Of a stretch of 64,000 bases of DNA, positions 109 to 59,810 are shown piece by piece; position 1 is the first letter of the stretch; each line of letters begins with the position of its first letter. A program made the translations under genes and the position numbers. Source of the DNA: Amyelois transitella. Taxonomy: Eukaryota > Arthropoda > Insecta > Lepidoptera > Pyralidae. The notes beneath the pieces are model-generated. The model searched no databases and was not told where the DNA came from. It saw only the letters and a list, made by a program, of their open reading frames with translations. The stretch lies in the NCBI RefSeq assembly GCF_032362555.1, contig NC_083511.1:11957001-12021000 (forward strand), read 5' to 3'.

Positions 109-5600
<5,492 letters not shown>

Positions 5601-29550: not shown

Positions 29551-29801
29551 GTGCCGTGTGGTTCCCGGCACCAATGAAAAAAGAATAGGGCCACTCCATC
29601 TCTTCCCCATGGATGTCATAAAAGGCGACTAAGGGATAGGCTCACAAGCTTGGGATTCTTCTTTTAGGCGATGGCCTGTCACTATTTGAATCTCAATTCT
29701 ATCATTAAGCCAAATAGCTGAACGTGGCCATTCATTTTTATTAAGACTGTTGGCTCTGTCTACCCCGCAAGGGATATAGACGTGACCATATGTATGTATG
29801 T
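29551..29801 (+). repeat. Full-length S2 element with target duplication
   Basis: Starts with the hairpin GTGCCGTGTGGTTCCCGGCAC and ends in (TATG)n. Flanked by ATCAATGTCA at 29539-29548 and 29802-29811. This is the clearest complete copy (about 250 bp) in the window. The TSD and tail support retrotransposition of a SINE-like element. Confidence 0.8.
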
Positions 29802-30436
29802 ATCAATGTCACAATAAAGAAATCGTAATATTTTGTTATTTACTGTGCCGCAGTTCCGTCCGCGTTAATTTCTGTTATTCTTAATTCCTGTTACTCCTGA
29901 GCGTTGCCTATCTGTGTGCCAAAATTGCCTCAAAATGGGTCCAGTCGTTTTTTAGTTTATAGTTACAAACAAAAATACAAGTAGGCCTTCGATATACTAT
30001 ACTTATAAATAATACTTAATCGAAGGTATGGGCACAAAAGTAAAGAAAAAAAAAACTTTTTACAAAGTATTCTTAAAAATATAAGCAAGACAAGTCGCGA
30101 ACACGAAAGCATTAAGTAGCCTGACCCGTTAAAAACTTGACACAATCTGAAGTGCATCCTGCGTTCCGTCGCGCTCGCACTCGGCCGAGTGGCGCGGGGG
30201 GTTTGTTGACATCCGAGCTTGCGGAGCCGGCGCTCGGGGTGCAAGCTCGGCTCGGGGCGCGGCCGACTCCGCACGAGGCGCGCCCGCCTCCAGCAGTGCC
30301 TTACGGACCGCGCGCGGGACCGCACGCGCCCGACGTCGGCGGAACACATCATGTGTGCCTCGCGAGTGTGACCCCGCTCTTCATGGCTGCTTGACACCAG
30401 ACCTCGGAGACAGCTGACCGCTAACAGCACGCCGCG

Positions 30437-33400
30437 ATGGCCTGCACCAGGGGCCTGTGCATGCAGGACAAAATCTTCATCTTCATAAACATCGCCTTCG
30501 CTGTGAGTAGCACTTGTTGTGACATTTGTCAGATTATCCAGGATCACTCCAGGGTGTCCTGGGAATTTTTGTTCCTTATGTTTAATATGAGAGTAAGTCA
30601 GTAAATAAATTTCACCCCGTGGTTGCTAGGGTGCTAAAAAATACATAGCTTGTATCCCAAATAGATTTGTAATTAGGTATATGAATAATTAAAATTAAAC
30701 TAGGTATGTTAAAATCATTTAACGTGACAAATAATTTGATTACTCATTCCTCATATAATTTCCCATACAAACATTAATTATCTTCCAGTTTTCATACATA
30801 GTGGGCTCTACATCTGCTCTACAAAAAATATTCAAAGCAAAAAGTTAATTCTTAAATAAATGAACACAAGACAAAGTAATATTTGCTTAGGTATATTTTA
30901 TTTTCTGTATGAAACATATTATAAAAGTAATTAATTTTATCGCAGTCGTGATAAAGTATTACTTTTCAAGCACGAACTTCACAAATAATTTAGAATAATG
31001 TAATGTAATTACAAAGAATAACTACAGTTATATAAAAGAAAAATGTACACTCATTACCTAGAATCTTGCTTGATTACAATAATAAACAACACAAGGATCA
31101 AATCAAGTAATATTCTCCGATTGTGGCGTGATCAACAAATAACTTTGGGAAGCGTGTAATTGGAGCGCACCAGTGCTGAGTCCGTTGTTCGTGGTATTTT
31201 TAATAGGAAGAAACCAAATTGACCTTCATGCGTCCGTAAGAAAAGCAGTCGAGGGTAACGCAGAACCAAAATCATTTCTGGCAAATGGTAAAGACAAACA
31301 AACTGCTCAGATAACAGTACGAATACAAATTGAAAGAATTCCAAAGCAAAATATTAAAAGATACGATGCAGACGTTAACTATTCAAAACCGGATTGTGGC
31401 GTCAAAGCAGGCGTCGAAAATGCACAAAAACATGAACGCACCCCACAGCACGCTTACCTGCACCCAAAACTATGCGGGCTAAACACAATGAGTGTCCCAA
31501 TGGTAACTTTATTATGCTTCTTGATGATTGCAGGGTAAGGTTTATTTTCATTCAAAGCCCTCACATGACAGGATTGTTATCGTTAGATTGTTGGGTGGAA
31601 AGAGAGATTCATTTCATGTAATCTTTCAAGTATTCTACACAGGGTCCACCAACAAAACCTGCGACTTTATTTATGAAATAATTATAAAATAAAACACAAA
31701 TAAAAAGTCTCTCCCGAAGCACCACATCGAAGCAACGCGCCCAAAATACTGGCAACGTTTCCCCGCTAAACAGCCAAATTACTAAAATACTAAAATTCCT
31801 CGGGTTACCGGTTGCCTCGATGAGCCGCTTCGTGATGTCCCTCAAAAATATATTAGCTTAAAACCTAGGTATGTAAAGAAAAATGTGTATATTAACATTT
31901 ATTACACAATGACTATTATTGCATTCAGTAGAACCAAGAATAGACTTCTAATCTAAAATCTACAACTTAATTAAATTTAACTAGACACACTACACGAGTG
32001 GATTTGTTAGAAAAATATGATAGCAAGAAGTGGAATAAAAACTTGTTGATAGACTCGATCTCGACAATCGATCACACGTAAAAACCGCGATCAAAGTCTA
32101 CATCAGCATCAGAATTTACGAAGGTTTTTTTATCTCATTCAAACTATGCTTCTGAATCGAAGTTACTTATAAGAATACCTTAAAAGTACTTAATTAACTC
32201 CTGCTGCTAATAATCCAGATAAAAATTTGAACTGTTCCGTGAGTTCCCGGCACCAATAGAAAAAAGAAAATGACCAAGTCTGTAATAAAAAAAATTAAGA
32301 TTTTATCAAAATAATATTATATTTATATAAAGGACCAAATGACTATATGAGAAAACAAAACAACTAACCATATCACATTGCAGTGTAGACACCGGTGACC
32401 TCGCGCGCTCCGGAACAAATACACAAAAGTAAACCAAACTATAATTGCTTACATAAACGCACATTATACCGATGGATCGTATATTTTACGCTAGAATTTT
32501 GGATCACGGTAAAGTGATATCATTCATTTATTGTATACTTAGCGAAGTCTATTCGTGTTCCTGGCTATAGTTCCGGTTTCATCGTCACCAGTCTGGAGAG
32601 GAGCCCGGGGTAAGCCCTTGACCATGGATCCTGGATTGGGTGAATCAGGTTTATACACGAAGCGACTCCCGTCTGACCTCCGCAACCTTTTCAGGGGAAC
32701 CTAACCCGTATTCGATCATATGGTTACACATCCAGTTGCCTGAATGTGCAGGTTTCCTCACGCTGTTTTACCTCACCGTAAGAGCATCAGTTAGTTATCA
32801 AACTAATGTACATAACTTAAAAATTGTCATTAGAATATGGTCGCTCTGTCTAACCCGCAAAGGATATAGACGTGACCATATGAATGTATGTATGTAGAAT
32901 ATGGTCGCGGATTCGAACCCGTGTCTTTATACGCAATCGCCTTTTAACCAGGCTCTGATTCTACCACCGACGCTCTTTTCAATTAATCAATCAATATTTA
33001 GTGAAGACAATACTCTATCTATAGTCATTTTTGATCTATCCTACGAAAATTTGTCAGCTATTTGTAGTAAAGGTGAAGGTTTGAGGAGATAAAATAACTT
33101 AAGTTAATTATGAACGTTCTGCACTCGTAGCCACTTAAAAGCCAGACGAGACGACGCTGGTGTATTCATAGCTATCCCTGATGCAGACGAGGCTGTATTA
33201 GAAACACTAATTGATTTTCGGTGTTTTCGTGCTCTCGATCGAAGCATTGGCACTTTACTGCAATGTGCTCATTTTGCAGTGGCACCGGTTTCAAGGTAGC
33301 AACCTTAAACCACATCCTAGCAGGTTATTAGCTTAATATCCGATGCAAACCGTACACCTACGAGTCCGAGCTAATATTGACCGGCTACTTTATGATCCTG

Positions 33401-42400: not shown

Positions 42401-45400
42401 ACACCGGAATCGACAAGCATGATGCGCCCCGTAGGATTTAACAAACCACGAGTGGATCTCTTCTACGACAACCTTGAAAAGCTGATGAAACAGTACAACA
42501 TTCACACCCTCAAGAATTTATAACTGTGATGAAACTGGTGTCAGTTGCGTGCACAAATATTCGTCCGGTACTAGGTGCCACTTTTTAAAATTATGTTTTT
42601 TGTTACCAAAGTTTGTTTGATAGTATTCATTATTTTTTAGCAGAGGTTGCATTTTTGTTAAATTAATTTGATTGCTAACTTTGTTATCTAATATAAGTCA
42701 TAATTTTATAAACATTCCTTAAATATTTTATGTTTTATTTTGAAATAACCTTAGGTGTCCGCCACTGGGGGACTTCCCCCTACCCCGGGCTCCTCTTCAG
42801 AGCGCTGGGGATGCAATCGGGACTAAAAGCCAGAAGAAGGAGGTTTGTTAAAAAGAATCGTTGAAATCGGTTCATAGCGAGCATATGATTTAGAAATCAT
42901 CTGCGCTACGAGGAATATATATTTGTACTATTTCCTAAACTTGTCAACGTTTTAATGTTGCCGGTCTGGAGAGAAAAAAAAAACAAAAATGTTCATGCTG
43001 ATTTTATGCAAACGAATGATTTTCCTACAGCTGTGAAGCTTTTAAGATTGCAAGTGACAGGTTGCCAGCCAATTTCTTTTACCTTTCTTTTGATTGACTT
43101 TTCTAATCTACACGGAAAGATAATACTTATATCATGATAGAATATTCCTTTCTACTTTGTTTATGTTCGAAGTAACAAGAAGCTTGGTATCTGTACCATC
43201 AATGGTCGAAGACGCGCCGTTCACGACGCTCGCGATTTGCATTCTCCGCGCTCCGGGCGTCCGGCCGACTACGACATTCACTGTATTATGTAGTACATTG
43301 TAGTAAACCACGGTTTGTGGGAAATTGTATTGTGATCCACATTTCACGGCCAATGTTCTACGTGCTTCACATTATGCAAGGTCATCTCCGGAATGACTGA
43401 GGAAAGTAATTTTGTTAGTAGACAGATGCGGAGGTGTAAACGGCCTGAGTCAATGGTGCAAGAAATAGTTTAACGAGTTTCTTTAGTCTACAAAACAACA
43501 CTGCGGCGTCAGCAGAGTTAAATAGTAACAAAACTCGAAGGTAAAGTTAAGCTGGATAGCTTTATGATGGAATTGAGGTTCAAAGATAGTGAAAGTCGCT
43601 AGCTCACCTAAGTTTCTAACATTTTCCTTCGTTGAACGAATACGGTTTAGATATGTATTTTTTGTGATTTTTCCATAAGTAGACTAAATGGAGAGTGGTC
43701 AAGCCGAGTCTAGTCTAGAAATCTAGAAAATTCTAGTTTAAAGTACCGTGTAGACTTGCACGGTAGGTGTTGTACGCTAACATTTACTTAAAGTTAGTCC
43801 AATCCAATCGAATCCTATCTTGTGGAAAATAATTAAGTACTTAATTGCATACCTATTATGTCGAAATTAAATAAATAAATACCTGTTATGTCGAAAATAA
43901 AAAAAATATATTATGCCGAACCTAGTTTTAAGACAGTTCTATCTGTTTTGAGTCACAATATATCACAATGTCTAATTATTTAAGTTGACAAGGCTAGGTA
44001 TTGAACATAGTTCGTCCCAGATATAGGCATAATGCATGTTCACAGCATAAAAACCTGAGTTATGCGCATCATTAGAGCTGACCCCTGCTCGGATGACTGC
44101 GCCGACAGACTTTGTTCTTTATAGATAAAGTATTAAAGTTATTTTTATGACGAATCTCCACAACACTCCTTTGTGAAGTGTTATCTCAGGAATGTCTTTA
44201 CATTATTGAAAACAGAGCTTCTATTGTCTGTCTGTGGACGTTCAGTATGAGTTCAATAAGTCTTTGCTGCAAATTAGGTACTTTGATAAGAGAAATTAAG
44301 ATAAGTGTAACAGACATAATGATCATGAAATACAGAGGTATCAGCGATATGTGACATGTAGGTCAAGTTGGTCTGCGATGTAGGCGCAGAGTTAGCTGAT
44401 ACTGGTATACTATCTCTGCATATAGACTTACATATGTACAGTACATTCGAATACTCAGATATTATATAGATAGAAGACGCCTAATAAAAGAAAAAGGCAA
44501 ATATCATCATCAACATCATCCTTCTGACGTGTGTCCCGGAGGCGTCATCACCTCTGGTGCTCCAGTGACCACGAGCCTGGATGAAGTAAGACAGGTTTTA
44601 CACGAAGCGACTCCTGTCTGACCTCAGACAATTAAAGTATTGTACACAACTCAGAAAATCTCAGTTATGGTATCGGCCCTATCTTGAACTTGTAGGCAAT
44701 TTACATAAATCTGTATAGAAATGAGATTAATTTAAAACGTTACAATCAATGATTACGTAAAAAATATACAAACAGTCGAACCTACAGTGGAAACGACCAC
44801 TGAACACACCTCACTTTGAAATATATTACATCAGATATTGACAAATACAGGCGGATAGCATGGAAGTAGATGACTTTATCATCAAGATGTGATATTAAAA
44901 CAAAAAATGTCCATTTCAGATGTTCAGCGGCGCGCTCCTGGCCACGGCGGCGCGCCTGGCCTGGGACCCCAGCACGTACGCGTGGTTCCGGTTCCTCTGC
45001 GAGACGCAGTACCGCGTGACCCTGGGCTACGTGCTCGCCGCGGGGCTGTGGCTGGCCGCGCTGGTCTACCTGGCCGCCGCCGCCACCGCCTACAGAGCCA
45101 AGAAGCCGGATAGGAATTGTCTCAAATTGGTATGATCAGTTTTGAAATACATCCTTAAGGAAATCTTTGAAATACTTTTGAATATATGCTGTTTTGCAAT
45201 TTATTATAAACTTGGAGAAAGTCGATCGAAACTCCAATAATATTATTTGATCTGCTAATTAACTGGTCGAAAGAGACTTAAAATTGGGCAGCGGACGGCG
45301 CTTAGTAGGTATACGCATCGTAAAGTCAAGTCCATTAGAAAGACAAAGGATACATTTAGAGGACCTAGAGATCCAGTCTCGTATGGTCCAAATACAACAG

Positions 45401-48400
45401 TCCACATCACTCCTACAGACATTCTTCCCCATTTGTCACGATCACAAAATCATAAATAAATGAGTGGCTCTCAGTCTTAACAAGCAAATCTAGCTTCGTG
45501 TATTTTAATAAATTTGTATGTTATTGTTTCAGTACGCTGTGGGCGTAGTAGTGTTGGCGATAAGCGAGGTGGTGTACGGGGCGTGGATGGCGGCGTCCCT
45601 CAAGGAGTGGTGGGAGACCGACCCACACGCTGAGCTGGCGAGGAAGAGCATGAGGCTCATGGAAGACGTAAAACCGGCGCTGTTGGCAGTGAAGAACTAC
45701 CGGGATGTGGTGGAACCGGTGCTGGATATGTTGGAGGTAAAGCCTTCGGGATAGACCTACATCTATACTTATATTATAAAGCTGAAGAGTTTTGTTTGAA
45801 TCTCAGAAACTACGTTCGAAATAAAAATTATTTTTGTGTTGAATAGATCATTTATCGAGGAAGGCTTAAGGCGATATAACATCACGCTGCTATTATTAGG
45901 AGCGGAGAAATAATGGAAAATGTAAAAAAAAACGGGGAAAATTATTCATCCTTGAGGGCTTCAATGATGCCCAAAACAACTATTCCACACGGACACAGTT
46001 AGTATATAATAAGACAAATTTTGTTACGTTGTGGAAAAAGTGAATGTTTTCCATCTGGTTTGTTTCTGTAAGTAACTAGAGTAAGAGTAACTAAAGTGTT
46101 TGCCCATGTTATACTTTTTTTTCTTTTGTTTAATAATGAAGTCCCCATAGATGATGAAATATTATATTTACTATTTAAGAATTATTTGCCAAATACTTTA
46201 TGCCTTTGTATTATTGGCGTAAATAAAGAATTGAAAGTACAAGTGTCGGTGACAGACGTCATGCATCCTGCATCAGCATTAGCTTCTTACGAAACCCTTG
46301 AGAATTAGAGTTAGAGTTTAGTTAGAGTTCCCTTAATAGCTGTATGCCTGAAAAAGACAAGCCAAAGGTATAAAAGATTCCAGTCTCAGCGGTCCCCTCC
46401 CCGGACAGACCGAGATAAAGAGTAATAGTTCAGTTCACAGGCAGGCAAAACAAGGCAGAACAAAAAATACAAGCATATGACAAAAGAAGCACTGATTTAC
46501 AGTTTTCTTTAGATTAAGAGAGAAACAAATTTTTAATATTTCTCTATGACTTGCATAATGAGAATTTCATTTTATTGGTACGAGTACATATAAAACATAC
46601 AATATGAGCAGGTGTGATTCTTACTAATACTTTTTGTTTTGATATACCTAATGAAATATGATTCAATCAGTAAATATGCAATAACAATTTGTATCAAGGT
46701 GTAAGTTCTGGGAACTAGTTCACGATGGTGATGCTATCGCCGAAACACGCGCCCAATCCGTGATAACTATTAGTAATCCTGAGATTATGATGAGTTACAA
46801 CACAAAGATATTGGCATTGAAAACTATACTGTTGTAAATTTTGAGTGACGGCATCCATTGACAAGGTGCGCCACCTCATTAGGAAAAGCCAGTAAAATGG
46901 GAAATAGGAACATAAAACTACTGTTTTTTATATCTTAAATCGCTTATACGAATAAAGGGAAGGAGCCCGAATGAAGGCAGCACCTGTTCATTTTCTACCT
47001 AGGCTATGTGCCAATGATTCATTTCTGATCTTTACACATCTGAAAATGTAGGAGAGCTGCATCCTTAGAAAACTGTCGTAAACGACTTTTTCCTAGTTTC
47101 TTTATTAAACCTGCTTAAAGCTGCGAAAAGTTTAATAAAGGTACTTACCTACACAGATACATATAGTCACGTTTATATCTCGTGCAGGGTAGACAGAGCC
47201 AACAGTCTTAAAAAGACGAATAGGCCACGTTCAGCTGCACGACTTAATGATAGAATTGACATTCAAATAGTGACAGGTTGCTAGCCCATGGCTTAAAAAC
47301 ATCCCTAGTTTATAAGCCTATCACTTAGTCGCCTTTTTCGACACCCATGTGAAAGAGGAGTGTTCCTATTCTTTTTTTTTATTGGTGCCGGGAACCACAC
47401 GGCTTAAAGGTAACTGGTAACTGGTAACATTAGTTCACAAACATTGATGACACTGACGTGTGGTATTGATGTGTCCGCAGGAGGTGGAGCGCAAGGCTCC
47501 CAACAACGTGTTCGTCATCGTCGTCTTCGCTATGCTGGGGCTCGTGTTGCAGGTAATTGAAGCCATTACCCAAACTTTGATGCCTGAAAATAAATGAATA
47601 ATATACACCCTTACGAGCGAACTTAGAAAAACAATGTATAGTGTTTTTAATTTAAAATTAAAAACACATCGTTTCTCTATGCTTCTTCTTCCTGGCTTTA
47701 GTCTCTGTTAAATCCTGTTGCAACCATCAACACTCTGGAGAGGAGCCCGGGGTATACTTTTGACCATGGAGCCTGGATTGGGTGAGTCAGGTTTTAACAC
47801 GAAGTCCCATCTGCCCTTCGCAACCTTTTGCCAATGCAAACCCATTTGCCTCACTGTAAGAGCATTGGTTAGTATTCAAAGTAACATATACATAACTTAG
47901 AAAATAGTTTTGTTTGAACCTGTGCCCACTGACGCTCTTACATTGTTACATACATACATATGGTCACGTCTATATCCCTTGCGGGGTAGACAGAGCCAAC
48001 AGTCTTCAAAAGACTGAATGGCCACGTTCAGCTATTTGGCTTAATGATAGAATTGAGATTCAAATAGTGACAGGTTGCTAGCTCATCGCCTAAAAGAGGA
48101 ATCCCAAGTTTATATCCCTTAGTTGCCTTTTACGACATCCATGGGAATGAGATAGAGTGGTCCTATTCTTTTTTGTAATGCCGTCTTGGTGCCGGTAATG
48201 GTGGTCAATGGTGCCGGGAACTACACGGCACTCACGGCTCTTACATTGTTTTACTATGCATTCATACATAATTACCCACTTGGGCTATTACAGATAGCAG
48301 CATTCGTGATGGCGTGCCGCCTCTCGCGGCGGGCGCCGCCCCGGGCCGAGCCGCGCGCGGGCCCCGAGCGGCGCCTGGAGAAGGGCGCGCCGAGCCCGCT

Positions 48401-48500
48401 GCCCGGCGACGACAGCGACGACAGCCGCGCCGACATGCCCCCCGGCTGGCGGAAGAAGGCCAACCTCAGCATGTACACTATACTTGACAGAATTTTCTAG
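30437..48500 (+). CDS. Tetraspanin-like four-pass membrane protein B, CCG-less, 252 aa
   Basis: Exons 30437-30502, 44920-45129, 45533-45736, 47481-47552 and 48294-48500, phase 0 throughout, stop TAG. TM1 KIFIFINIAFA|MFSGALLATAARL carries Asn18. WDPSTY follows in the small loop. TM2 is GYVLAAGLWLAALVYLAAAA. TM3 YAVGVVVLAISEVVYGAW has Glu104. TM4 VFVIVVFAMLGLVLQIAAF has Gln184. The large loop (about 58 residues) has no cysteine. The tail is basic/acidic (RRAPPRAEPRAG, GDDSDDSRAD). The Asn/Glu/Gln pattern and exon 1 length (66 nt) match tetraspanins, including gene A, but CCG is absent, so I call it tetraspanin-like. Intron 1 is 14.4 kb. A GC-rich exon with a good acceptor at 48851 may give an alternative C-terminus. 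Start choice: ATG in the context GCCGCGATGG. Confidence 0.82.
32560..32980 (-). repeat. S1 SINE interrupted by an S2 fragment
   Basis: Runs from the tail (GAGGAGCCCGGGGTAAGC) through ACGAAGCGACTCCCGTCTGA to a tRNA-like head on the minus strand with box-B-like GGGTTCGAATCC and GTCGGTGGTAGA. A 51-bp S2 tail (32845-32895) is inserted between the middle and the head. Confidence 0.78.
32845..32895 (+). repeat. 5'-truncated S2 insertion with 13-bp target duplication
   Basis: Only the last 51 bp of S2 (CTCTGTCTAACCCGC...ATGTATGTATGT), flanked by AGAATATGGTCGC at 32832-32844 and 32896-32908. This is the pattern of a truncated target-primed reverse transcription product. Confidence 0.8.
36030..36395 (-). 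repeat. Full-length tRNA-derived SINE (family S1)
   Basis: Read on the minus strand: tRNA-like head with GCGTCGGTGGTAGTCC (A-box region) and AAGTTCGAATCCCACC (B-box), then CTCGGCCGTGTACCAATGAC, GATGCTCTTACGGTGAGGG, CAATACGGGTAAGATTCCCC, GGAGTCGCTTCGTG and the end GCCAGGAGGAAGAATGA. About 360 bp; used as reference for the other S1 copies. Confidence 0.8.
37200..37350 (+). repeat. S3 SINE body
   Basis: Shares GGGTCTTGAATGTTTAAATC, ATTTATTATAAAATATCGTA, AACACAAGTCTCGAACTTAC, TTCGAGGCTAATTCAATCTG and TTTGTCCCGTATA with the minus-strand copy at 56385-56625. Resembles the widespread lepidopteran SINEs of the Metulj type; that name is from memory and unchecked. Confidence 0.7.
37755..37838 (-). repeat. 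S2 fragment with internal deletion
   Basis: (CATA)n tail joined directly to AGAATTGAGATTCAAATAGT and GGCAGGTTGCTAGCC; the Ser/Thr-codon-like CTCTGTCTACC block is missing. Another short tail piece lies at about 38062-38110. Confidence 0.55.
41455..42780 (+). mobile_element. Decayed pogo/Tigger-like DNA transposon (1326 bp)
   Basis: Perfect terminal inverted repeats GGGGGAAGTCCC / GGGACTTCCCCC, flanked by TA at 41453-41454 and 42781-42782. It carries a transposase remnant (see 41954-42590). GCCGGAC motifs recur four times on the left half (about 41472, 41489, 41830, 41854). Much of the catalytic region is missing, so this is a non-autonomous, internally deleted copy. Confidence 0.85.
41954..42590 (+). 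pseudogene. Truncated pogo/Tigger-family transposase
   Basis: The ATG at 41954 opens a psq-type helix-turn-helix (WDPQSLQTAIDKVM, LSVRQAAMRYNIPKSTIH). An in-frame TAA follows, then the same frame continues (42119-42523) through a CENP-B-like second DNA-binding domain (LKLAYDLAEVM, RHSDISLRTPES). A one-base shift near 42519 leads into YNCDETGVS, the first catalytic Asp block of DDE transposases. Coding then fades at about 42590 and the rest of the catalytic core is absent. One stop, one frameshift and a large deletion make it inactive. Confidence 0.8.
44510..44630 (-). repeat. S1 SINE fragment
   Basis: GTCCCGGAGGCGTCATCACC, GAGCCTGGATGAAGTAAGAC and ACACGAAGCGACTCCTGTCT in S1 order. Lies about 300 bp upstream of gene B exon 2. 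Confidence 0.55.
45762..46012 (+). repeat. S4 repeat, copy 2
   Basis: ATCTATACTTATATTATAAA, AGCTGAAGAGTTTTGTTTG and the end CAACTATTCCACACGGAC match copy 1 at 26125. It lies just after gene B exon 3, inside the 1.7 kb third intron. Confidence 0.6.
47144..47403 (-). repeat. Near full-length S2 element in gene B intron 3
   Basis: From the tail (ATACATATAGTCACGTTTAT) to the hairpin head (GGTGCCGGGAACCACACGG). Possible short target repeat AAAGGTA on both sides. Its right end lies about 77 bp upstream of gene B exon 4. Confidence 0.7.
47682..47940 (-). repeat. S1 SINE, interrupted near its head by S2
   Basis: CTTCCTGGCTTTAGTC, TGGAGAGGAGCCCGGGGTAT, GCCTGGATTGGGTGAGTCAG and GTAAGAGCATTGGTTAGTAT in S1 order. 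The head is broken at GACGCTCTTA where the next S2 element inserted. Confidence 0.7.
47948..48236 (-). repeat. S2 element with 14-bp target duplication
   Basis: Flanked by GCTCTTACATTGTT at 47934-47947 and 48237-48250. It runs from (CATA)n to a partly duplicated hairpin head (GGTGCCGG, then GGTGCCGGGAACTACACGGC). It sits in gene B intron 4, ending about 57 bp before exon 5. Confidence 0.8.
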
Positions 48501-48850
48501 CAGGTCAGTTTTTATTTTCATTCTTTGTTGAGGTTTCTATTAGAGGTACCGCCGTCGTTTATTTCCGTCTTACTTACTTTAGCATAAACATTAAATCGTT
48601 CAGTTTTGCATGGCTTGGTTGCGTATGTTTTTGGGAACTTGCTCAAAAATCATTGGCTATCTTGCCAGGACACTCGAAGTCAGCAATAACAAGATGTGAC
48701 AAAGACGTAAATAAGGAATGAGTTTGATTCTATATTATGACATCATTGGGAATGAAAACGATCTTCGCCATATTTGGTTATTACTGTGAAGCGACTGCAG
48801 TCATGTTTGCGTGAATCATTTGTTAAACATCTATCTTACTCGTTTTCCAG

Positions 48851-49121
48851 GACGAAGAGGCCGCCGCGGTCTCGCCGCTCCGCGCAGGCATGCCGCCGCC
48901 GTCCGCGCCTCCGGCGCCGCGCCCCCGCACACGGCGGCGCGGCCGCGGGGCCTCCACGGCGCGGCGGCGCGGCGACGGCGTCGCTCGGGACGCGCGCTGG
49001 GACGCCGTGCATGCGCAGCTCCGGGCCGCGCACCAAACTCGCGCTCAGCCCTCCGCACCGGCGCTACTCATTTTACATGCCGACCTATGAACTAAGAATA
49101 AGTGATCAAACAGTCATATAA
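48851..49121 (+). CDS. Candidate alternative last exon of gene B
   Basis: A good acceptor (TTTTCCAG) precedes a GC-rich stretch, open in more than one frame. Read in phase 2 it ends GPRTKLALSPPHRRYSFYMP...DQTVI before TAA at 49119. This phase matches the tail introns of genes C and D. A weak donor inside exon 5 of gene B (AGCAT|GTACAC, about 48472) would join in that phase, at the place where C and D splice (…NLSM versus …TLLL and …SLLY). The alternative phase-0 frame starts DEEAAAVSPLRAG and stops at 49090. If only the CAG|GTCAGT site after the exon 5 stop is used, this would be 3' UTR. Coding status is uncertain. Confidence 0.4.
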
Positions 49122-52100
49122 TATCGCCAATATAATGTACATGGCTTGTTGAACACTAGTCAAATTATCAAACGAAACGATCATAGAATTTATCGATAAG
49201 TAATCCGACTTTTCGTACAAAATAACAACAGATAATTTTATGGGAAATTTGAATTTTTGCTTTATATTTCTTTGAAAACTTGATCTACTTGCTCATAAAA
49301 TTTGGCGGGTGTTTAAAAAGTCATAAACAACTGCACTAAAAAGATAAAGATGGTGTGGCGATAAGTGTGATTTGAGATAATTATAGTGAAAAAGAAAAGT
49401 TTTATCGACAGCACCGTGTCACCAGATAAGGACGCTCCTGAGATTGAATGACAGAGATTAAAACGAATTATTTGTTCCTCAAAGTATTGTAAGATTTTCA
49501 CATTCCTTTTGAATATGTACAAAGTGCGCTCAATAGGTGAGGGTCGTTGTCGAAGGATTGTGGAGACCGCGCTTCCCAAAGGTAGCCCTTGCCTGCTCCA
49601 CAATACTGCCAAACTGCATAGATTACATACAGATTAAATATAGTTCAATCATTTTATAGAATTAAGGATTTAATTTTCTGAGATTTATGCACAATTTGAC
49701 GAATACGATTGTTTTATAATGTAGAATTTGTGCGTAGTCTCGTTGTTAACATTATCTATGGTAAGTAGGAATTCTATAAACCTATAGGTACAAATAAGCT
49801 ATGTTCCGTAGAAAACGAAGACAGACTGCCATATTTTATTAGTGAATAGATAAATTGTATCAAATTTTAGTCATAAGTTTATTAGTGATACTGTAAGTAA
49901 AACTCATATCACTTTGTTTTCGCGTCGCATGCGGCGTTCTCGGAGAGACGTGTGGTGCTATACTACTTGTTGAACTTTCAATCCTAGTTCCGGTCAAAAG
50001 TCAGCTGTGAAACGGCCATTTTATATCGCCGTCTTCTATTAACTGTATCAGTAAGACAAGGACTGCAATATGAAATGTCCGTTTGACATACGACTTCCGT
50101 TCGGGCTGAATAAATTTAGACGTAAGTAGGTTCCATGTGTTCGATTCGACCGAATGACTCCACTTTGCTGTGATTTGCTTTAAAAGTAACGCTAACTAGG
50201 TAGTGTGTGGGTCCCGGTCCGCCATATTGCTGTGACCGCGGTGCGCGGCGTGTTTGTTTGTTCCCTTCCGGATACGGTTGTTTTGTATTTGGTGCCAAAT
50301 AGAATTAAGTACGACGTAAAAAATAGTGCGGGCAACACGGTCTACCGATCTAAGAAGCATCTACTTTTCCCCATAGTGGTATTTATAACGATATTTCAAG
50401 TGATAGCCGTACTTGGCAACCATCGTCTATTTTTGTGGGTAAATCAGAATGTCTAGCCTCGAAACTCCAGCTATCTGTACCTCATGGAACTCTAGAACAC
50501 CAACTCGAGACTACAGAATTACAACTTGAAGGCTTGTCTTGATATATAAAAGATGAGCCTTCAAGTTGGCAACTATCGTCATGTGTAGCCCACTGGCGAG
50601 GGTATATGCTATAATATACATCACTGGTATGATTCACGCTGAATTCCGAAATACAACAACCTCTTATTCTAAGAGGCTGTAAATTTACTGAACACCTTAG
50701 CGGTAGCCGTGCGTGCGCGCACCCTACTAGACAATAAGTCCGACACGAGCCGTGCGGACCGTCGACGGCGGTAATGTTTTCTTACGCACAGACAATGTTT
50801 ACCTAGCACGTAAGGACGAAGCAATAAAGTGATATTTTTGTATTTACTGGTTTCATTTGTCTAATGTTGGATCTGAGTTAGGGATCCAGAATGTAAAAAT
50901 AATTATTATTGATTACATCGACCAATTATTACCCGTGGTTTAGATGTCCGGTCAACCGAACCACAGAAAAATATTATCCAACGATAAAATTACCTTTCAG
51001 TCGCAGTACCTTATACCTAAATCATGAAGACGCATCACTGTTTTAAATACTATAATACTAGCTGTTTTTAACCGTGATTAGCCCGAGATCAAAAAAGTAA
51101 AGGGATTTTTACACAAAGCGACCATCATCTGACTTCCTCAACCTTTGTGGGAACCTAAACTTTATGGATCATGTCGAATCCTTCAGTCGCTTTTTACGAC
51201 ATCCATAGGAGTGGCGCTTTTCTAAAGTGCCAGGAACCACACGGCAAAAACATCACATTACGTCTTGATACCTTACGGGATTGACACAACGAGCCTGCAA
51301 TATGAGGGTACACAAGCGGAAACTAGGTACACTCACCAGCTCAAATGACCGTGTATGTCGTAGGTACTTGTTAAGATTAGTCTCTATCTCTCTCTCTCTC
51401 AGGCTCCCCGAGTAACTAGTAACTATAGAAACCATTTAAAAAAAAAACCATCGAAATAAGTGAGTAGGTATAGATCAACCGTTATTCATGGCAGTCGCCT
51501 TTTTTTATTCTAAATCCGCATCCGAACTGATTTATTCATTGAAGAGATGCCGCGTTCCCGACAGCAGTAACATACATCGATAAACAAGTCAAAATAATAC
51601 AATCATTTTTGCGTCAGACTATAATCAGAGGCTGCTTTTTTTGTAAAATATGTAAAGAATTTTTATTAATCATTGCAATAACTTGAAGCTACTCATCGAA
51701 TAACGCGAATATGCTCTTAACCAGGAAAGCCCCAATATGAATGCAATTTAATTACAATTTGTAACAGTAACAGGAAAACAAAGGCATGAGGAATGAGTAA
51801 TCACGGTTCCCAACAAATGACCATTTCAGCAAAATGGGTCCTCCGACAGTCGCCCGATAGCGGCACCGGAATCATGTTATCTGCAGTCAGCGTTCCAATG
51901 CACTTTGAAGGAAAACATTAATTACAAACAGTTGAACATTTCAACAGTGAACTTATAATTATACTTGGGTACTTATTTGGTAAGGCTTTGATGTAAAGTA
52001 GACCATCAGACTAGTGAAGCTTTGCACTGGTGAAGTGAAGAATAATGTTGGAGATTGTTAAACTCTTGCAGTGAAGTGACTGGTGTCTTTAACAAAGTAG

Positions 52101-52460
52101 TGATAAGGTGAACTTAAAAGTAGTCAAGTGAAGTGAGAAATACCTATATTGGAGAGCTTTTTGAAAAAGTTGAGCATCAAACTAATGAAATGAAGAAAAA
52201 TGTTAGAAATATTTGATGTATTTGTGAAATGACTGGTGTCTTCGACAAAGCAATAAAACAAAGTCAAAATGAATCTGGTGAAGTGAGAAATACTTATACT
52301 GGAAAGTTGAGCTTCGAACTAGAAAAGAGATATAAAAAAATATTTGAAATATTTCATGTGTTCGGAATGTGATTGGTGTGTTAGACAAAAAAAGTTATTC
52401 TTATTTGTAAGAGAAGAAGCAGTGAAGTTGATAAAAAAGTTTAAAAAACAGACTCCTATA
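49122..52460. other. Gene B to gene C intergenic region
   Basis: Probably begins with the 3' UTR of gene B. A 13-bp inverted repeat with a 21-nt spacer sits at 50522-50568. GC-richer patches lie near 50190-50260 and 50700-50770. An S1 fragment (51090-51175, minus) is followed by an S2 head fragment (51175-51245, minus). The last 500 bp upstream of gene C contain loosely repeated GTGAAGTGA-type words. No gene seen. Confidence 0.45.
50823..50828 (+). terminator. Candidate polyadenylation signal of gene B
   Basis: AATAAA followed by GATATTTTTGTATTTACTGG and TTTCATTTGTC (T/GT-rich). It lies 1.7 kb after the candidate last exon, and no better signal was seen closer. Confidence 0.3.
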
Positions 52461-55400
52461 ATGACGGTGTTAGTGTGCGTCATGTTGCAGTACATCAATC
52501 TGCTGTTGATGGTGAGATCTAATAGTACAGTGCAGGAGTTGGTATTCGAGATAATATTCACCTATAAAGAGATGTGGTCTTTCCAAATTATGGAATGAAT
52601 TTGAGGAGCTATGGCGTACATATAGACGCAAAATTCGTCAGATTTCTGTTCAATATCGTTACGATTTGTTAGGTTTGGGATTTTAAATTTTATCAAAAAA
52701 ACGTTTAATAAATCAAAGTTATGATCGTTCCTCATGAAGAAAGTAGTCAAAGAGTGTTTTTACTTTGGGTGATTTATTTCTTAAGAGAAAATCTACATCG
52801 CAGAATTATTGTCTAGGTTCATGGTATGATCCTGCTGCAATTTAGCGATATTTGTGAGGTGGCTTCGGCTCTAATAATAGATGAGTCATCCGTTAAAACC
52901 ATTAACTAGTCAGTTTATGTAATTAATAAATTATACTTCTATTACACGTCATAAAAGCTATTAAACTTTTCATTTGCTTGTGGATACATTCGCCAAGTGA
53001 TTTATTATACTTTAATCTAATTCTGTGTCATTTGAAAGCATTGGATGAATCAAACTCTTTATTTGCGGCCGTTCACCAATAATTAATTTGTCGTCATTGA
53101 ATACAGATGATGGCGGGGGCGGGGCTATCGACGGCGACGCTGCTGCTCTTCTTCGCCAGCTCCACCAAGTATCCTCTGCGGTCGCCGTTACTGCTGGAGT
53201 GTCGTGTAGCGACCGCCGCGCTGACCTCGGTCGCGGCGACCCTGACCTTGCTGGGGTTACTGCTGCAGGCTGGACTCGGAGCCAAGACCTGGCGCCGCCC
53301 TATTCTTATTACAGTAGGTGTCTTTTTTTAAAGTGGCCCATTTGTCTTTTTAAGACTGCTGGCTCTGTCTCCCCCGTAAAAGATAAAATGTGAATGTATG
53401 AACATTCTCGCGTTTATTCTGGTTGCGTCCCCGCCTGCCACGAATAATAATACCTATAGGTGGGTTTTCAGGTTTAACATACTTACAAAAACTACTTATG
53501 GGTACATAAAAAACCACTTTATAAGGTTTAGAACTCTGTCAAACATTGTTTCTTTTTTAGACTATAGACAATTTTGACTAACACAACAAAGTCAGAAAAA
53601 ACTAAAATACTGTACCGACTCCACGTAGAAAGGTAACGACAAAGAAGCAGAACAAAGTTCGGTTGTGTAAGTCCTAATTATTGTTTATTTTTTATTCTAC
53701 CAAGTTTTGAAAATGATTATAAAAGTGAATTTGTTTCCAGTACTCGGCAATGATGGCGGCGGTGGTGTGTTGCGAGGCGTGCGCGGCGGCGTGGCTGTGC
53801 TGGCGGCTGTACCTGCTCGTCGCTGACCAGCGCCTCGTGGCGGCATTCAGCTGGAACAAGATCTATGCTGACATTGTTAAGGTTAGTTTATTTTAAAGTT
53901 CTTATTATAAATAACGATCAAAAACTAGAAGAATTTGCAGGCTAATAGGTAGAATTTCATACTGAGATGTTCGAAACTTGTGTTACGAGATACTCCGTTG
54001 TCAAAACTATCTTATTATAAGAAGGATCTCATGCCTATCTAGATCTTCGAACACCTCAATCAGGATGTAGCTGAGAAAAAAAACATCGAATAATTAAAAA
54101 TGTGCTTTCAGGAGTTGACCCCCGACAGGCCCTACGTTTTGTATGTGGCCGGGGCGTGCGCGGTGTTCTGTGCTGTTCTGCAGTGCCTGGCCTTCCTGCT
54201 GGCAATCCTTGCCTCCAGGTCTTCAGCAGGCTTGGGGACGGTCCCCGCGGAGAGACAGCAGTCAGCAGACCGCGCAGACAACAAGACGCTGCTTTTGTAA
54301 GTAGTTAGTTCCAGATAGACCTAAACATACTTTGTCATCCGAGCAGCGTTAGTCGAAACGGTTAGGTGATACGCATAAAGGCATAAGTTCAAATCCCATC
54401 TCAGCCATGTAACAAATAACATTAGTTTCAATACTAACCTTTGCCCTTATGCTCTTCAACGACCAATGTCATTTCAAACTTTCGCACTCATTACATTTAC
54501 TTTTTACGAGGGCAGCTATTGTGCGTCATTAAGTGTAGTTCAGTTATATGAGGTTAATGTGTAATTTCAGGTCTTACATGCGGTCTCCCGCGAGCACCCC
54601 CCGCTGCTTGCGGCCGCTGAGTGGCTCCAGCGCCGAGTACCAGCCCACTCTGCTGTAAGTCTTACACGTCTTCTCGGCACGATTCTGGATTGGGTTAGTC
54701 AAGCTTTTACACGAAGCGACTCTGAATCCACACTAATCTTTGTTCCGTATTTATATTTGTCTAATAATTATAGATAGGAAATATAATTAGATTTACAAAA
54801 GAAACATTGATGTTGGGAACAATAATTAAATAAAAGAGATGATTGACATAACGCACAGCCACAATCACTGGGCCAAGAGATTAGAAACGGGTTTCTTGTG
54901 TGGTGTGGGGGTGTACACAGAGAGGACCTCCGAAATTCCCGCGAAAACTAAATAAACAGAAATTTGTGTTACTGTGGCGATATCTATACGCCACAAGAAA
55001 CAAAACTAAAAAATATAATCACGCGGCGCTATCAGTCATAAACAGCGAAAAACCTAAATCGCGAAGCAAAGATTTCACGGATTGGAGCTGTATGTACAAC
55101 CTCCGACACAACATCGTCTGTCGCGCGGTTCCCCAGGCCTAACACCTAGCCTGGCGGAAGATCTTCCCTTTGGTGGCGGTCGAGCCGAATCATCGCTCTC
55201 GCTACATTAGTATTCTAAACCACAAAATATGTGCCGTGTGGTTCCCGGCACCATTATAAAAAAGAATAGGACCACTCCATCTCTTTCCCACGGATGTCGT
55301 AAAAGGCGACTATGGGATAGGCTTATAAACTTGGGATTCCTCTTTTAGGCGATGGGCTAGCAACCTGTCACTATTTGAACCTCAATTCCATCACAAAGTC

Positions 55401-55669
55401 AAGACTGTTGGCTCTGTCTACCCCGCTAGGGATATAGACGTGATCATATGCATGCATGCATGCATGTAAATATGTCTTTAACTTAATTTGAACCCATTTT
55501 AATCTGGATTAAAAAATTTGGCTATGTATCTGTATACATCTGTGTTCGTCATAAAGATTTCCACGTGAACTTGTTATTTTGCAGGTCCAAAGATAAGGAT
55601 AGTAGTCGGCGGTCGAGGCGGTCGCGAGGCTGGCAGCTGCAGCCAGATGTCGGCTGGAAGCAGGGGTAG
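52461..55669 (+). CDS. Tetraspanin-like four-pass membrane protein C, CCG-less, 250 aa
   Basis: Exons 52461-52511, 53107-53313, 53741-53881, 54112-54296, 54571-54654 and 55585-55669; phases 0,0,0,2,2; stop TAG. TM1 VCVMLQYINLLLM|MMAGAGLSTA has Asn13. TM2 is ALTSVAATLTLLGLLLQAGL. TM3 YSAMMAAVVCCEACAAAWL has Glu98. The large loop is only about 36 residues and cysteine-free (LVADQRLVAAFSWNKIYAD). TM4 VAGACAVFCAVLQCLAFLLAIL has Gln157. The cytoplasmic tail is long and Ser/Arg-rich (SKDKDSSRRSRRSRGW), spread over two extra exons. The start could instead be an upstream in-frame ATG at 52356, which would add 35 residues; I prefer 52461 because the Asn then sits as in the paralogues. Same orientation and exon plan as B and D. 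Confidence 0.8.
53314..53740. other. Gene C intron 2 with a short S2 remnant
   Basis: 53345-53400 carries CTTTTTAAGACTGCTGGCTC, TGTCTCCCCCGTAAAAGAT and an ATGTGAATGTATGA end, the S2 tail. The rest of the intron shows nothing recognisable. Confidence 0.45.
54340..54500 (+). repeat. S1 head fragment in gene C intron 4
   Basis: GCGTTAGTCGAAACGGTTAG, a B-box-like AAGTTCAAATCCCATC and CTCAGCCATG resemble the tRNA-like S1 head. A further S1 piece (GATTCTGGATTGGG, ACACGAAGCGACTC) is at 54680-54730 in the next intron. Confidence 0.5.
55025..55215 (-). repeat. S5 repeat copy in gene C intron 5
   Basis: Reverse complement of the 6150-6345 repeat: GTACAACCTCCGACACAACA, GTTCCCCAGGCCTAACACCT, GGCGGAAGATCTTCCCTTTG and GGCGGTCGAGCCGAATCATC. 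The open frame 54900-55142 overlaps this repeat and is not a gene. Confidence 0.65.
55231..55467 (+). repeat. Full-length S2 element in gene C intron 5
   Basis: Hairpin head GTGCCGTGTGGTTCCCGGCAC to a tail in which (TATG) has become (CATG)n. It directly follows the S5 copy. Confidence 0.75.
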
Positions 55670-57328
55670 GGGATTCTGTAAACAAGCCCAGAATTAGTGA
55701 GAAGGAAGGGAAAGGCTGCTGCGAGCTGGAAAATATATTCAAGAAAAAAATTACCAACTATTTTGCTGTGCTGCTGCCAATTACTGAACTATTTAGTTGA
55801 TCGGTGAAAAATAACGAAAGCTGAATTTTTTTATTATTAACAGAATAACCTAAGTGGTCCCGAAGCGTTGCGGCAGGGGGTGCAACTGGGAACACGCCAG
55901 GATGAGACTTCTTACAAAAAATCTTCATTTACTGTAAGCTTGTAGGTATGAAGCTCGTACGTAACGCATAATAATTATTAGTTTTCCTCAGTAATTTCAT
56001 TTGTGAATAGTCAGTAACGTTGCTTTAATATTAATTATACAAATTATGTGACCAAAAATTGTACTTAGTGACATAAAAATATATTTTGTTAAAATTGCCT
56101 ATCTACATTTATTGTCACCTGCTGTACTACTTCGACTGTTTGCCGTTATAATCCTTTGGTATCGTTATGATCTTGAATATGGTCCACATAATATGTGACA
56201 GCTGCAAATTAAGTACATGTGTGTAAACTGTCTTAACAGTAACCCAGTTTTGTATCAGATAGTGAGAACGAGAACGCAACAGTTCCTGCTTTGTTGAGAG
56301 GAAGCTATGGAACGTTTATCTGAATACTGCTTAATGGAGATTTTTAAAAGATCGCTTATTGAAGATTAAATAAATAAATAAATAAATATATACGGGACAA
56401 ATTACACTGATTAAGTTAGCCTCGAAGTAAGTTCGAAACTTGTGTTACGAGATACTAACTCAACGATACTATATTTTATAATAAATACTTATATAGATAA
56501 ACATCCAAGACCCAGGACAATCAGAAAAAGTTATTTTCTCATCATGCCTTGACCGGGATTTGAACCCGGGACCTCCGGTGTCACAGACAAGCGTACTACC
56601 GCTGAGCCACAGAGGCCGTCAATTTTAAAGTTATTGATTAAGTTAAAGTTATCGAGAATTTTTAATCTCCACCTATTATTTCCGTATCTATCTATTGTAT
56701 CTATTTAAAAAAAAAATGCTTTCTTATCTTCGCCGAAAACGCGAATCGTGTTCTATCATTATCATCCGACATTCGCTATTTAGTTTTCGTGCGATCGACA
56801 GCTCGTGTGTTTTATACAAAGTAGGTAATGAAAACTCAGGAACCGGTGGGAGCCAAACAAATTTGTTGGTAATCGAACTGATAGTGGACCGATAACGTGT
56901 ATCTTATCCGGCCAAGTACACAACCTCATCGTGGCTCGCGCATGCTCGTGCGCATATTGTCTTCGATTACATTTTTAAATGCATTTTTCAAAATATTCCT
57001 GTGACGTTTTATATTAGGTATTAAAGTGCTTTAAGTGTATTCAGCGCGTGCAAAATGCATGAGCCCGGTTTAACCCTATAGGATGGACGAGCTTAAACTA
57101 AAAGGACGTTATTACGGACTTTGAGCAGTTTTCTATGGAGTTCATCGATCTTGAGGCAGGCGCGATTTGAATCAGAGTGCATCTTATGGTTTCCGTTTAA
57201 GAGACAAAAATATAAAGTGTGTGGATGCAGCAGTGGAAAGCTTGTGTTAAAGTGACAAAGCTTTATTAAGGCAGAAGGCCCCCCTGAAGGTGGTATTTAG
57301 AAGTTACCCCGGATTATTTACGTTCCCG
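55670..57328. other. Gene C to gene D intergenic region
   Basis: Begins with probable 3' UTR of gene C and contains the S3 SINE at 56385-56625. The 5' UTR and promoter of gene D should lie in 56900-57328. A motif GCGTTGCGGCAGGGGGTGCA near 55865 is echoed near 63600. No ORF with coding character. Confidence 0.45.
56385..56625 (-). repeat. S3 SINE with tRNA-like head
   Basis: On the minus strand the head (56625-56550) has an A-box TGGCTCAGCGGTAG and B-box GGGTTCAAATCCC with a GC-rich T-arm. The body CCTGGGTCTTGGATG, CTCGTAACACAAGTTTCG, CTTCGAGGCTAACTTAATC and GTAATTTGTCCCGTATATA follows, ending in a (TTTA)n tail. The acceptor stem does not pair over seven bases, so it is not a functional tRNA. 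Confidence 0.8.
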
Positions 57329-59810
57329 ATGGCGCGCGCTGAACGAGTGGCGGCAGCTGTGTTGCCGCATGTCAACCTGTTACTTACGGTGAGTCACGTA
57401 TCTGATGCCTTGTTTATATTATGAACTTCCAAACGTAAGCGAGCAAATGGCAGAGGTTATCTGCGATTCTTATCAGTCTCTCCCCCTAGTGATTCATTTC
57501 CCGGAATTAATAATTTGCCACCTAGAATTTTATTTATTTTTCTTTTACAATTTAATTATATAAAGTTGATATTGGTCAAAAGGTGAAATAATATGTTTGC
57601 GACTTAAATATAGTTATATCTCTTAGTTCCAGAGTGGAACGAAAAAAATTACTTGATGCCTTGCCCTTAGCTGACATAGAATAAAAGTCACAGTCACATT
57701 AGGTATATGTGCGAAATGCCTTTTGTTCTGGGAATTTATTAACTTGTATGTTTTTGTAGCACAGACATTATCACTCGAGCCGGCCTTGTGTTAGTCATCC
57801 GCGTTGCAGTTTTCTTATCAATTTTTTACATTGATTTTGGTTTATCACTAGCAATTCATACACAAACATACTTACATATAATCACATCTATATCCCTTGC
57901 GGTAAAGACAGAGCAAACAGTCTTGGAATAACTGAAAAGCCGCATTCAGTTATATGGTATTGAAATTCAAATAGTGACAGGTTGCTAGCTCCTCGCCTAC
58001 AAGACAAATACCAAGTTTAATGGCGACCTTAGTCGCCTTTTACGACATCCATGGGATGAAATTAAGTGGTCCTATATTATTTAGTGCCGGAAACCATACG
58101 GCATAGAAATATATCACAGACTTATCAAAATATAATTGTTGAATACCTAACACAAACCTAATTAATAAATTGTTGACTACATATCTCAATCTTAAAGCCA
58201 AATGGTTGGACGTGGCCTATCAGACTTCTCAACACAGTTGGCTCTGTCTACCCCGCAAGCTATATAAACGTGATCATATGTATGTATACCTATGTGTCAG
58301 GTGATAGTGGGCGCTGGCATCGCCACCTCGGCCCGCCTGAAGTGGGACCCCAGCACGTACATCGTGGTGCGCGAGCTGCTGCCGCTGGAGTACCGCGTGC
58401 TGGCCGCGCTGCTGCTGGTGCTGCCGCTGGCGCTGCTGCTGCTGGCGCACCTGGCCTCGGCCGCCCTGGCCGCGCGCTCGCCCGCCGTGCGCCGCGTGCT
58501 GCTGCTCGTGGTGAGTGACTGTCTGGCCTGGGTGATTTCACGAGGTAACTTACTGGTTTTTATTTGTGGTGAGTATTGCACGTATACTTATCAATTTAAA
58601 TTACTTATTTTTGTTTGTTTAAGACCGATTATAATTTGACCAACCTTTAGTGACATAGCTTTTCTTTTAGGTATTTTTTTTTTTAATTTTTACTGCATGC
58701 AACCTAGTGGTTACTAGTTAATAATGATGTTGGTAATTCGATAATCATGTGGACTTTAACATATTTTTTCTTACTGATGGGGTATTTTTACGATTGACAG
58801 AATTATGTGCTTGTCAAGTACCTATATCACTTAAATCAGAAAATGCGAACTTGTCTTTGATAACTGACTGATTAACATAAGGGTTTTATGAAAGCTTATT
58901 AGGTGCTGTTTAAAATGCAATTTAACGTTGTTTCAGTACGCGATATGCATGCTAAGCTTGTTGATCGGCGAGGTGGCGGCAGGGTGGTGGGTGGGGGGCC
59001 GCGCGGTGCAGTGGCTGAACTCTGCGCAGGCGCAGCGGTTCGCTGAGCTGGCGGCGGCGCGCGACGACCTGCGCGCGGTGCTAGCCGTGCTCGCCAAGTG
59101 GCACCCGCTGCCCGAGAGGGTGCATCAGCTTATTGACGTGAGAGTTTATTTACTTTCTGTATCATTGAAATACCAAATGGCATTCGGATGCCGAAAACAC
59201 TATTGTAAATTTTTCATATTTATTTTGCTTGAAGATCAACAAATACCGACACTGGGAAATTAACTGACTAAAAATTATCTTTTATGATTATATTCCAGGA
59301 AGCTTCCGCGGATTTGCCGCGCAACGCATACTGCGCAGCCTCGTTCGCGTTGCTGTGCATCGTGCTACAGCTGCTCGGCGCCGCGCTCGCCGCGCTCATT
59401 GCGCTCGCGCCGCTCTGCTCGAATCGCTCGCGCCGGGAGAGTACCGGGACCGACACCGACAGTCAGAGATCACTTTTGTAATTATATATAAACTTATTTT
59501 TGTTTTAACGATATTTCAAAGAAACTACTGGAGTAGGATTGTTGGAGAGAAAAAAAAACAGAGACAATTAAATATGAAGCTACTAAATAATATACTTAGA
59601 GGCTTTAAAAACCAAATTTTGACGACAAGATACTCTTAGATTGGACGCATTATGTTCGAAAAAAAATGATAAATGTGAGCATACGGCTCATTTGTTACAT
59701 AATATTTGTTATACACTAAACAGTATTTAATGTTTAGGTACAGCAGCAAGACCAGTGACCGACCCTCCCTGAAGACCATCTACAAGAACGGGCGCCTGCA
59801 GATCGTGTGA
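57329..59810 (+). CDS. Tetraspanin-like four-pass membrane protein D, CCG-less, 240 aa
   Basis: Exons 57329-57388, 58301-58510, 58937-59137, 59299-59477 and 59738-59810; phases 0,0,0,2; stop TGA. TM1 VLPHVNLLLT|VIVGAGIATSARL has Asn16. WDPSTY follows, as in gene B, and exon 2 has the same 210-nt length as in B. TM2 is ALLLVLPLALLLLAHLASAA. TM3 YAICMLSLLIGEVAAGWW has Glu102. The large loop (about 55-60 residues) is cysteine-free and helical-looking (FAELAAARDDLRAVLAVLAK). TM4 CAASFALLCIVLQLLGAALA has Gln181. The tail ends SKTSDRPSLKTIYKNGRLQI. Exon 2 begins directly after the tail of an S2 repeat. Closest to gene B by eye. Function unknown; a membrane-organising role is inferred from family only. 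Confidence 0.82.
57859..58102 (-). repeat. S2 element in gene D intron 1
   Basis: (CATA)-type tail (CATACTTACATATAATCACA) through GTGACAGGTTGCTAGCTC to the head GTGCCGGAAACCATACGGC. Nearly full length, diverged. Confidence 0.7.
58185..58290 (+). repeat. S2 3' fragment abutting gene D exon 2
   Basis: AATCTTAAAGCCAAATGG, GACGTGGCCTATCAGAC, GGCTCTGTCTACCCCGCAAG and CGTGATCATATGTATGTATA. The exon 2 acceptor AG is at 58299-58300, only about 10 bp beyond the repeat tail. Confidence 0.7.

Follow-up and report, generated by a model that had tools for sequence, protein, structure and literature searches.

Three tandem genes in the moth Amyelois transitella that look like tetraspanins without the disulfide-bonded head

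Introduction

A stretch of 64,000 nucleotides (nt) from the moth Amyelois transitella (C7:11957001-12021000, contig NC_083511.1; from here on, the window) carries, downstream of a canonical tetraspanin gene called A here, three further genes, B, C and D, that lie in tandem. From their sequences they look like a tetraspanin-derived branch that has kept the triad of polar residues in the transmembrane segments (TMs). The CCG-containing head of the large extracellular loop is regarded as the hallmark of tetraspanins and as one site of partner binding; an Asn in TM1, a Glu or Gln in TM3 and a Glu or Gln in TM4 are typical of the family as well. What, then, is a gene that has the buried polar residues and no head? 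By the CCG and Pfam tests B, C and D are not canonical; by descent they are very probably tetraspanins. It is very likely that they derive from a tetraspanin gene that lost the part encoding the disulfide-bonded head and was then duplicated in tandem, and that what is left is a headless bundle.

Gene models and the polar triad

All three genes could be rebuilt intact, with 15 of 15 exons located, five per gene, no internal stop and GT-AG introns throughout, yielding proteins of 252 (B), 223 (C) and 240 (D) amino acids (aa). Introns 1-3 are in phase 0 in each, and the last intron is in phase 0 in B and in phase 2 in C and D. The coordinates in the first-pass annotation, which had been made from the letters of the window, were right, as were its exon 2 lengths of 210, 207 and 210 nt in B, C and D (the order followed below); exon 3 has 68, 47 and 67 codons and intron 3 has 1744, 230 and 161 nt. 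Its placing of the polar residues was borne out by the rebuilt models: in each gene Asn is the fifth-last codon of exon 1, Glu is codon 12 of exon 3 and Gln is codon 24 of exon 4 (N18/E104/Q184 in B, N13/E98/Q157 in C and N16/E102/Q181 in D), and all three belong to the 32 columns that do not vary in the B-C-D alignment. Polar TM residues are seen likewise in the canonical tetraspanins of the same genome, the searches of which covered 327 megabases (Mb) in 33 contigs.

A fixed rule for delimiting the large loop gives lengths of 55, 34 and 54 aa, with 0 cysteines in each protein; neither CCG nor disulfide-forming loop cysteines are present. The claimed absence of cysteine stands, while the 36-60 residues given with it are replaced by these lengths. 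Four hydropathy segments, each with a mean of at least 1.85, mark four TMs in B, C and D, and a weak fifth peak of about 1.0 is in or near the loop of C and D. The linker between TM2 and TM3 has 5, 3 and 3 Lys/Arg residues, which suits an inside position, and the N- and C-termini would also be inside. The cytoplasmic tails, again by a fixed rule, are of 55, 53 and 46 aa; that of B has YTIL and that of C has DNKTLL, neither being in D, and these we take to resemble sorting signals. When modelled by AlphaFold2, with exon 3 of B and C as the alignment, the product of D exon 3 is nearly all helical.

First exons were sought as an ATG and a hydrophobic stretch with Asn five codons ahead of a GT donor, in five stretches between 12000 and 64000. 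Seven rows resulted, including the expected first exons of A, B, C and D; the row for C was 52356-52511, the inner Met at 52461 being taken as the start. The weakest part of the models is exon 1 of B, which is 14.4 kilobases (kb) upstream of exon 2 and has the pattern as its sole evidence: it is one of two candidates in the scan of 21500-44900, the other having a less hydrophobic end and a GTACGA donor.

Intron anatomy

The best evidence for tetraspanin descent is the anatomy of the introns. In the canonical tetraspanins of the same genome, phase-0 introns follow the TM1 stretch and the polar residue of TM4; two more precede the polar residue of TM3 by 11 codons and CCG by 0-2 codons. B, C and D have the TM1 intron and the one ahead of the TM3 polar residue in common with them to the codon. 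The TM1 intron was found after ...VNLVFA (L027) and ...VNFLFL (L030), i.e., in two of 12 loci scanned, and it is similarly placed in A (...FNIIFL) and in B-D. A TM3 exon with Y or F as its first codon and E or Q as its twelfth is present in six of the 14 loci scanned (L008, L029, L031, L034, L036 and L037), a similar match in L042 being left out of the count as it lies within the loop; many of the loci do not extend far enough to contain this exon. At the other end of the gene, B has a phase-0 intron after the TM4 Gln, as there is after Gln or Glu in L007, L008 and L031.

The border at CCG is where the two sets of genes part company. With the stricter of two scans, an acceptor 0-2 codons before the loop CCG was identified in six of nine genes with a readable loop CCG (L006/L033, L008, L031, L034, L036 and L042), CCG motifs at the end of TM2 not being counted; it is also present in A and, by the looser scan, in L007, and neither scan found it in L035 or L037. 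Canonical exon 3 can run for 57-58 codons, in five genes, and for 25 in L034, against the lengths given above for B-D, and its ends (...FESIEKQ, ...DFAQSD, ...DFIQDR) may be set beside those of B, C and D (...VLDMLE, ...YADIVK, ...VHQLID), whose exon 3 stops where CCG would begin. From the CCG acceptor to the TM4 Gln, Glu or Met before the donor there are 69 (L031), 74 (L007), 77 (L008) and 85 (L042) codons in candidate exons, versus 24 codons to Gln in exon 4 of B-D, which is 45-61 codons fewer. Because of these exon borders and codon counts the missing piece is identified as the CCG-to-GC head of 45-61 codons, the pre-CCG part and the membrane bundle remaining; an earlier suggestion that the loop had been reduced to its constant part before CCG, the stalk, agrees with the exon borders.

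The introns of B-D are equated with ancestral introns 1, 2 and 4, and in B also with 6; intron 3 is absent and intron 5 is not separable from 4. The numbering from 1 to 6 is that of PMC2650405 and, as we apply it to these genes, is partly our assumption. All nine ancient tetraspanin introns are described there as phase 0, with introns 1 and 4 placed in the ancestor of eukaryotes (PMC2650405).

Sequence relatedness

Tetraspanin is the top Pfam-A match for each of the three proteins, aligned over TM1-TM3, with 21.2 bits (expectation value, E, 2.6e-4) for B, 7.1 bits (E 5.1) for C and 21.1 bits (E 2.8e-4) for D, and no Tetraspanin match was obtained with any of 10 locally shuffled B and D controls. 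A B-C-D profile compared with 177,635 PDB sequences matched CD81 at 7e-4 and 1.4e-3, the next match being at 0.5, and in that alignment the Asn and the Glu pair with those of CD81. Alignment of B-D by hhalign to seven tetraspanins of the same genome scored 39.5 over 100 columns, in TM1-TM3 only, with Asn again on Asn and the Glu of B-D on the TM3 Gln of L001. Which tetraspanin is closest? Compared by BLASTP with B, C and D, gene A gave no E below 0.42, and A as the closest relative is thus without significant support.

Searches of the genome with D, B and C returned 6, 6 and 5 matches, all of them exons of B, C and D. No further copies were found there, though the B and D searches also missed C and so distant copies may escape; the flanks of the window, searched over 20 kb each way and up to E 1, have none. 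Elsewhere in the genome (G000 C26:4434523-4441956) three other tandem tetraspanins, L001-L003, are over the Pfam cut-off along nearly the whole profile, have one open frame each and are seemingly without the introns of the family.

Weighing the alternatives

Are B, C and D ordinary tetraspanins whose CCG exon was overlooked in an intron or on account of unusual splice sites? A first cassette scan of their introns other than the 14.4-kb intron 1 of B, in which a donor with G at the fifth place was required, gave no cassette, and because canonical genes here use looser donors too, introns 2-4 were rescanned with any AG and any GT. Open stretches with at least two cysteines then numbered six in B intron 3, which is roomy enough for an exon, nine in B intron 4, and four each in C introns 2 and 4; the four most cysteine-rich ones in B intron 3 are of 16-26 aa. 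However, none of the + strand frames of introns 2-4 of B, C and D holds a CCG, none of the open AG-to-GT stretches there has adjacent cysteines, and the loop intron, intron 3, is short in C and D and lacks any open stretch with two cysteines in these two genes; an overlooked exon is regarded as very improbable. The 14.4-kb intron 1 of B has one in-frame CCG, which was rejected as a loop exon, as that intron interrupts TM1, where no loop exon would be expected.

Alternatively, the genes could belong to an unrelated four-helix family (L6/TM4SF, MARVEL, claudin-like or other) whose tetraspanin likeness is due to convergence, and the unmet Pfam cut-off, the absent CCG and the low signal of C would be in keeping with that. 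The fungal protein Tpl1, which is also CCG-less and was found by a tetraspanin profile, is classed by its authors as tetraspanin-like only (PMC2278132). On the other hand no L6, MARVEL or claudin model in Pfam matched B-D up to E 10, HMMER filters dropping most weak matches, and the intron positions and phases common to B-D and the canonical genes of their own genome would be hard to reach by convergence; we regard this alternative as very improbable.

Nor is decay of tetraspanin copies into pseudogenes given other than a very slim chance. Decay might account for the missing canonical head and for identities of just 23-33% among B-D over aligned codons, but they are intact over five exons and the three polar residues are kept at an identity of about 30%. 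Identity at codon positions 1, 2 and 3 is 42-44%, 45-55% and 42-46%, with shuffled pairing giving 26-28%, 26-28% and 36-38%; the excess is greatest at position 2 (55% versus 26% between B and D, 45 versus 26 between B and C, 54 versus 28 between C and D) and least at position 3 (46 versus 38, 42 versus 36 and 45 versus 37, respectively), though the codons were aligned through their proteins, a procedure that is biased towards positions 1 and 2, that the shuffle leaves uncorrected and that accounts for part of this pattern. G+C at positions 1/2/3 is 0.61/0.45/0.88 in B, 0.57/0.50/0.79 in C and 0.69/0.49/0.85 in D, and that of the exons is 45-75% compared with 37-45% in 2-kb bins of 44001-60000, bins that include the exons. 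An excess that is greatest at position 2 is as in coding sequence. B, C and D are taken as real genes.

Several points weigh against descent from a tetraspanin by loss of the head. All three proteins are below the curated Pfam cut-off for PF00335, 32.1 bits, and C on its own is non-significant, so that the Pfam check proposed at first pass ranks the family first and leaves each match short of the threshold. One of the 10 locally shuffled B/D controls matched the unrelated DUF4719 at 4e-6, above its cut-off, and with this control Pfam E-values of about 1e-4 are no proof for sequences of this sort. The separation of the hhalign score from block-permuted controls is moderate, none of 60 exceeding it but one being at 39.2, with the others at 30.2 or less. 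In most of the canonical loci examined, the stretch at hand does not reach far enough for each intron to be seen, and exon ends for L007, L008, L031, L036, L037 and L042 were picked among several candidates, the exon-3 donor of L008, L031, L036 and L037 being picked for leading to the CCG exon (L029 and L034 have one candidate each); the TM4 donor of L007, GTGGGA, is weak. The AlphaFold2 model of D exon 3 has a mean predicted local distance difference test score (pLDDT) of 66.8 and a predicted template modelling score (pTM) of 0.34, with pLDDT 73-88 for residues 1-30 and 50-58 thereafter. Even so, the introns, the Pfam ranking and the PDB profile agree with the tetraspanin-derived branch of the first-pass annotation, as does the lack of CCG in introns 2-4.

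Proposed origin, function and relatives

On the origin favoured here, the part encoding the disulfide-bonded head of the large loop would have been lost first, and tandem duplication would then have given B, C and D. The predicted fold is a tetraspanin bundle of four helices, in whose interior the polar residues would pack, with a short cysteine-free helical stalk on top. Such proteins may be lateral membrane organisers that act via the faces of their TMs, the small loop and the rather long cytoplasmic tails, and they would not grip the ectodomain of a partner by the large loop, unlike CD81 with CD19. For CD81 the large loop is reported to be needed for CD19 export (PMC7228769).

A wider proposal, to which we give somewhat less than an even chance, is that B-D are the founders of a conserved insect clade of headless tetraspanins, in which the head part of an exon was removed between two ancestral introns, the bundle and triad stayed under selection, and function moved to the helices, the small loop and the long tail. 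A clade of this sort, if conserved, would be a natural deletion experiment on which tetraspanin functions need the large loop, as genes with buried polar residues but no head would separate the roles of bundle and head; chimeras such as those of PMC7228769 reach that question from the other side. Annotation based on CCG or on the Pfam cut-off could overlook genes of this kind.

Compared with canonical animal tetraspanins (PF00335; CD81, CD63, insect Tsp), B-D are alike in their four TMs, in the Asn/Glu/Gln of TM1/TM3/TM4, in the phase-0 introns equated with ancestral ones, and in having CD81 as the closest solved structure by sequence; they differ in the absent CCG and loop cysteines, in the codons missing from the CCG boundary up to the polar residue of TM4, in their sub-threshold Pfam scores, and in tails of 46-55 aa versus the 5-15 aa given as usual for tetraspanin termini (PMC4517926). 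An initial remark, that its author was aware of no such family in the literature, needs softening, as fungal Tpl1 (PMC2278132) and TM4SF1 (PMC4517926) are published as lacking CCG. Tpl1 shares with B-D the four TMs, a CCG-less large loop (56-68 aa in Tpl1) and its finding with the PF00335 profile; it differs in having two conserved loop cysteines, near TM3 and TM4, where B-D have none, in its tail of 9-17 aa and in its reported restriction to ascomycetes. The Tpl1 tree used Nce2 among its outgroups (PMC2278132). TM4SF1 of the L6 group is described as a superfamily member without CCG (PMC4517926), and B-D have no Pfam match to L6 within the limit given above.

Dictyostelium is reported to have modified CCG motifs (CCK, CCC) with four loop cysteines kept (PMC5012570), the tsetse tetraspanins of one study are reported with CCG (PMC4592607), and of six listed vertebrate loop types five are printed with CCG and one without a pattern (PMC2965184). 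No title on CCG-less tetraspanins in moth or silkworm was among the matches listed from open-licence papers, an absence that is weak as only such papers were covered.

The window and its other features

Table 1. Exons of genes A-D, by position in the window
Feature	Position	Strand	Evidence
Gene A, canonical tetraspanin, 279 aa	19853..21514	+	Pfam, PDB matches, gene model
Gene A exons (third: LECCG...PSSCC)	19853-19918, 20080-20433, 20778-20966, 21284-21514	+	Gene model
Gene B exon 1 (start, first half of TM1, ending ...INIAFA)	30437..30502	+	Pattern scan and gene model; least certain exon
Gene B exon 2 (second half of TM1, first extracellular loop (EC1) with LAWDPSTY, TM2)	44920..45129	+	Gene model; 44-45% identity to D exon 2
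Gene B exon 3 (TM3, Glu at codon 12, cysteine-free loop)	45533..45736	+	Gene model, loop cut
Gene B exon 4 (loop end, TM4 up to Gln; phase-0 intron right after Gln)	47481..47552	+	Gene model; matches canonical TM4 intron place
Gene B exon 5 (remaining TM4, cytoplasmic tail, stop)	48294..48500	+	Gene model
Gene C exon 1 (ending ...YINLLLM)	52461..52511	+	Pattern scan and model; start codon uncertain, frame open upstream to 52356
Gene C exon 2	53107..53313	+	Gene model
Gene C exon 3 (TM3, shortest loop)	53741..53881	+	Gene model, loop cut
Gene C exon 4 (TM4, Gln at codon 24)	54112..54296	+	Gene model
Gene C exon 5 (tail, stop)	54571..54658	+	Gene model
Gene D exon 1 (MARAERVAAAVLPHVNLLLT up to the exon end)	57329..57388	+	Pattern scan and gene model
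Gene D exon 2 (EC1 with LKWDPSTY, TM2)	58301..58510	+	Gene model
Gene D exon 3 (TM3 with Glu, cysteine-free loop)	58937..59137	+	Gene model, loop cut, AlphaFold2 model of exon
Gene D exon 4 (TM4 with Gln)	59299..59477	+	Gene model
Gene D exon 5 (tail, stop)	59738..59810	+	Gene model

Gene A, taken as canonical from the outset, is so: it has 87.7 bits (E 1.2e-24) to Pfam Tetraspanin, both LECCG and PSSCC, and PDB matches to Tetraspanin-7, CD81 and CD9. Beside it are - strand open frames that match condensin II CAP-H2, at 12670-13008 (CNDH2_N, 42.4 bits) and 16685-16891 (CNDH2_C, 21.2 bits, below the cut-off of 32), a possible synteny anchor. Within intron 1 of B, at 41909-42523 on the + strand, there is an open frame with a Psq helix-turn-helix (HTH_psq, 39 bits, 41909-42085) and then a frame without a Pfam match, which together look like a transposase fragment. 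An interspersed repeat is present on both strands of the window, e.g., at 17897-18043, 29629-29802, 47069-47284 and 47908-48081, and also in the tetraspanin locus L036. Near the start of the window, at 33-263 and 3761-4126 on the - strand, two frames match eukaryotic aspartyl protease (Pfam Asp, 39.9 and 67.1 bits) and are probably exons of a cathepsin D-like gene.

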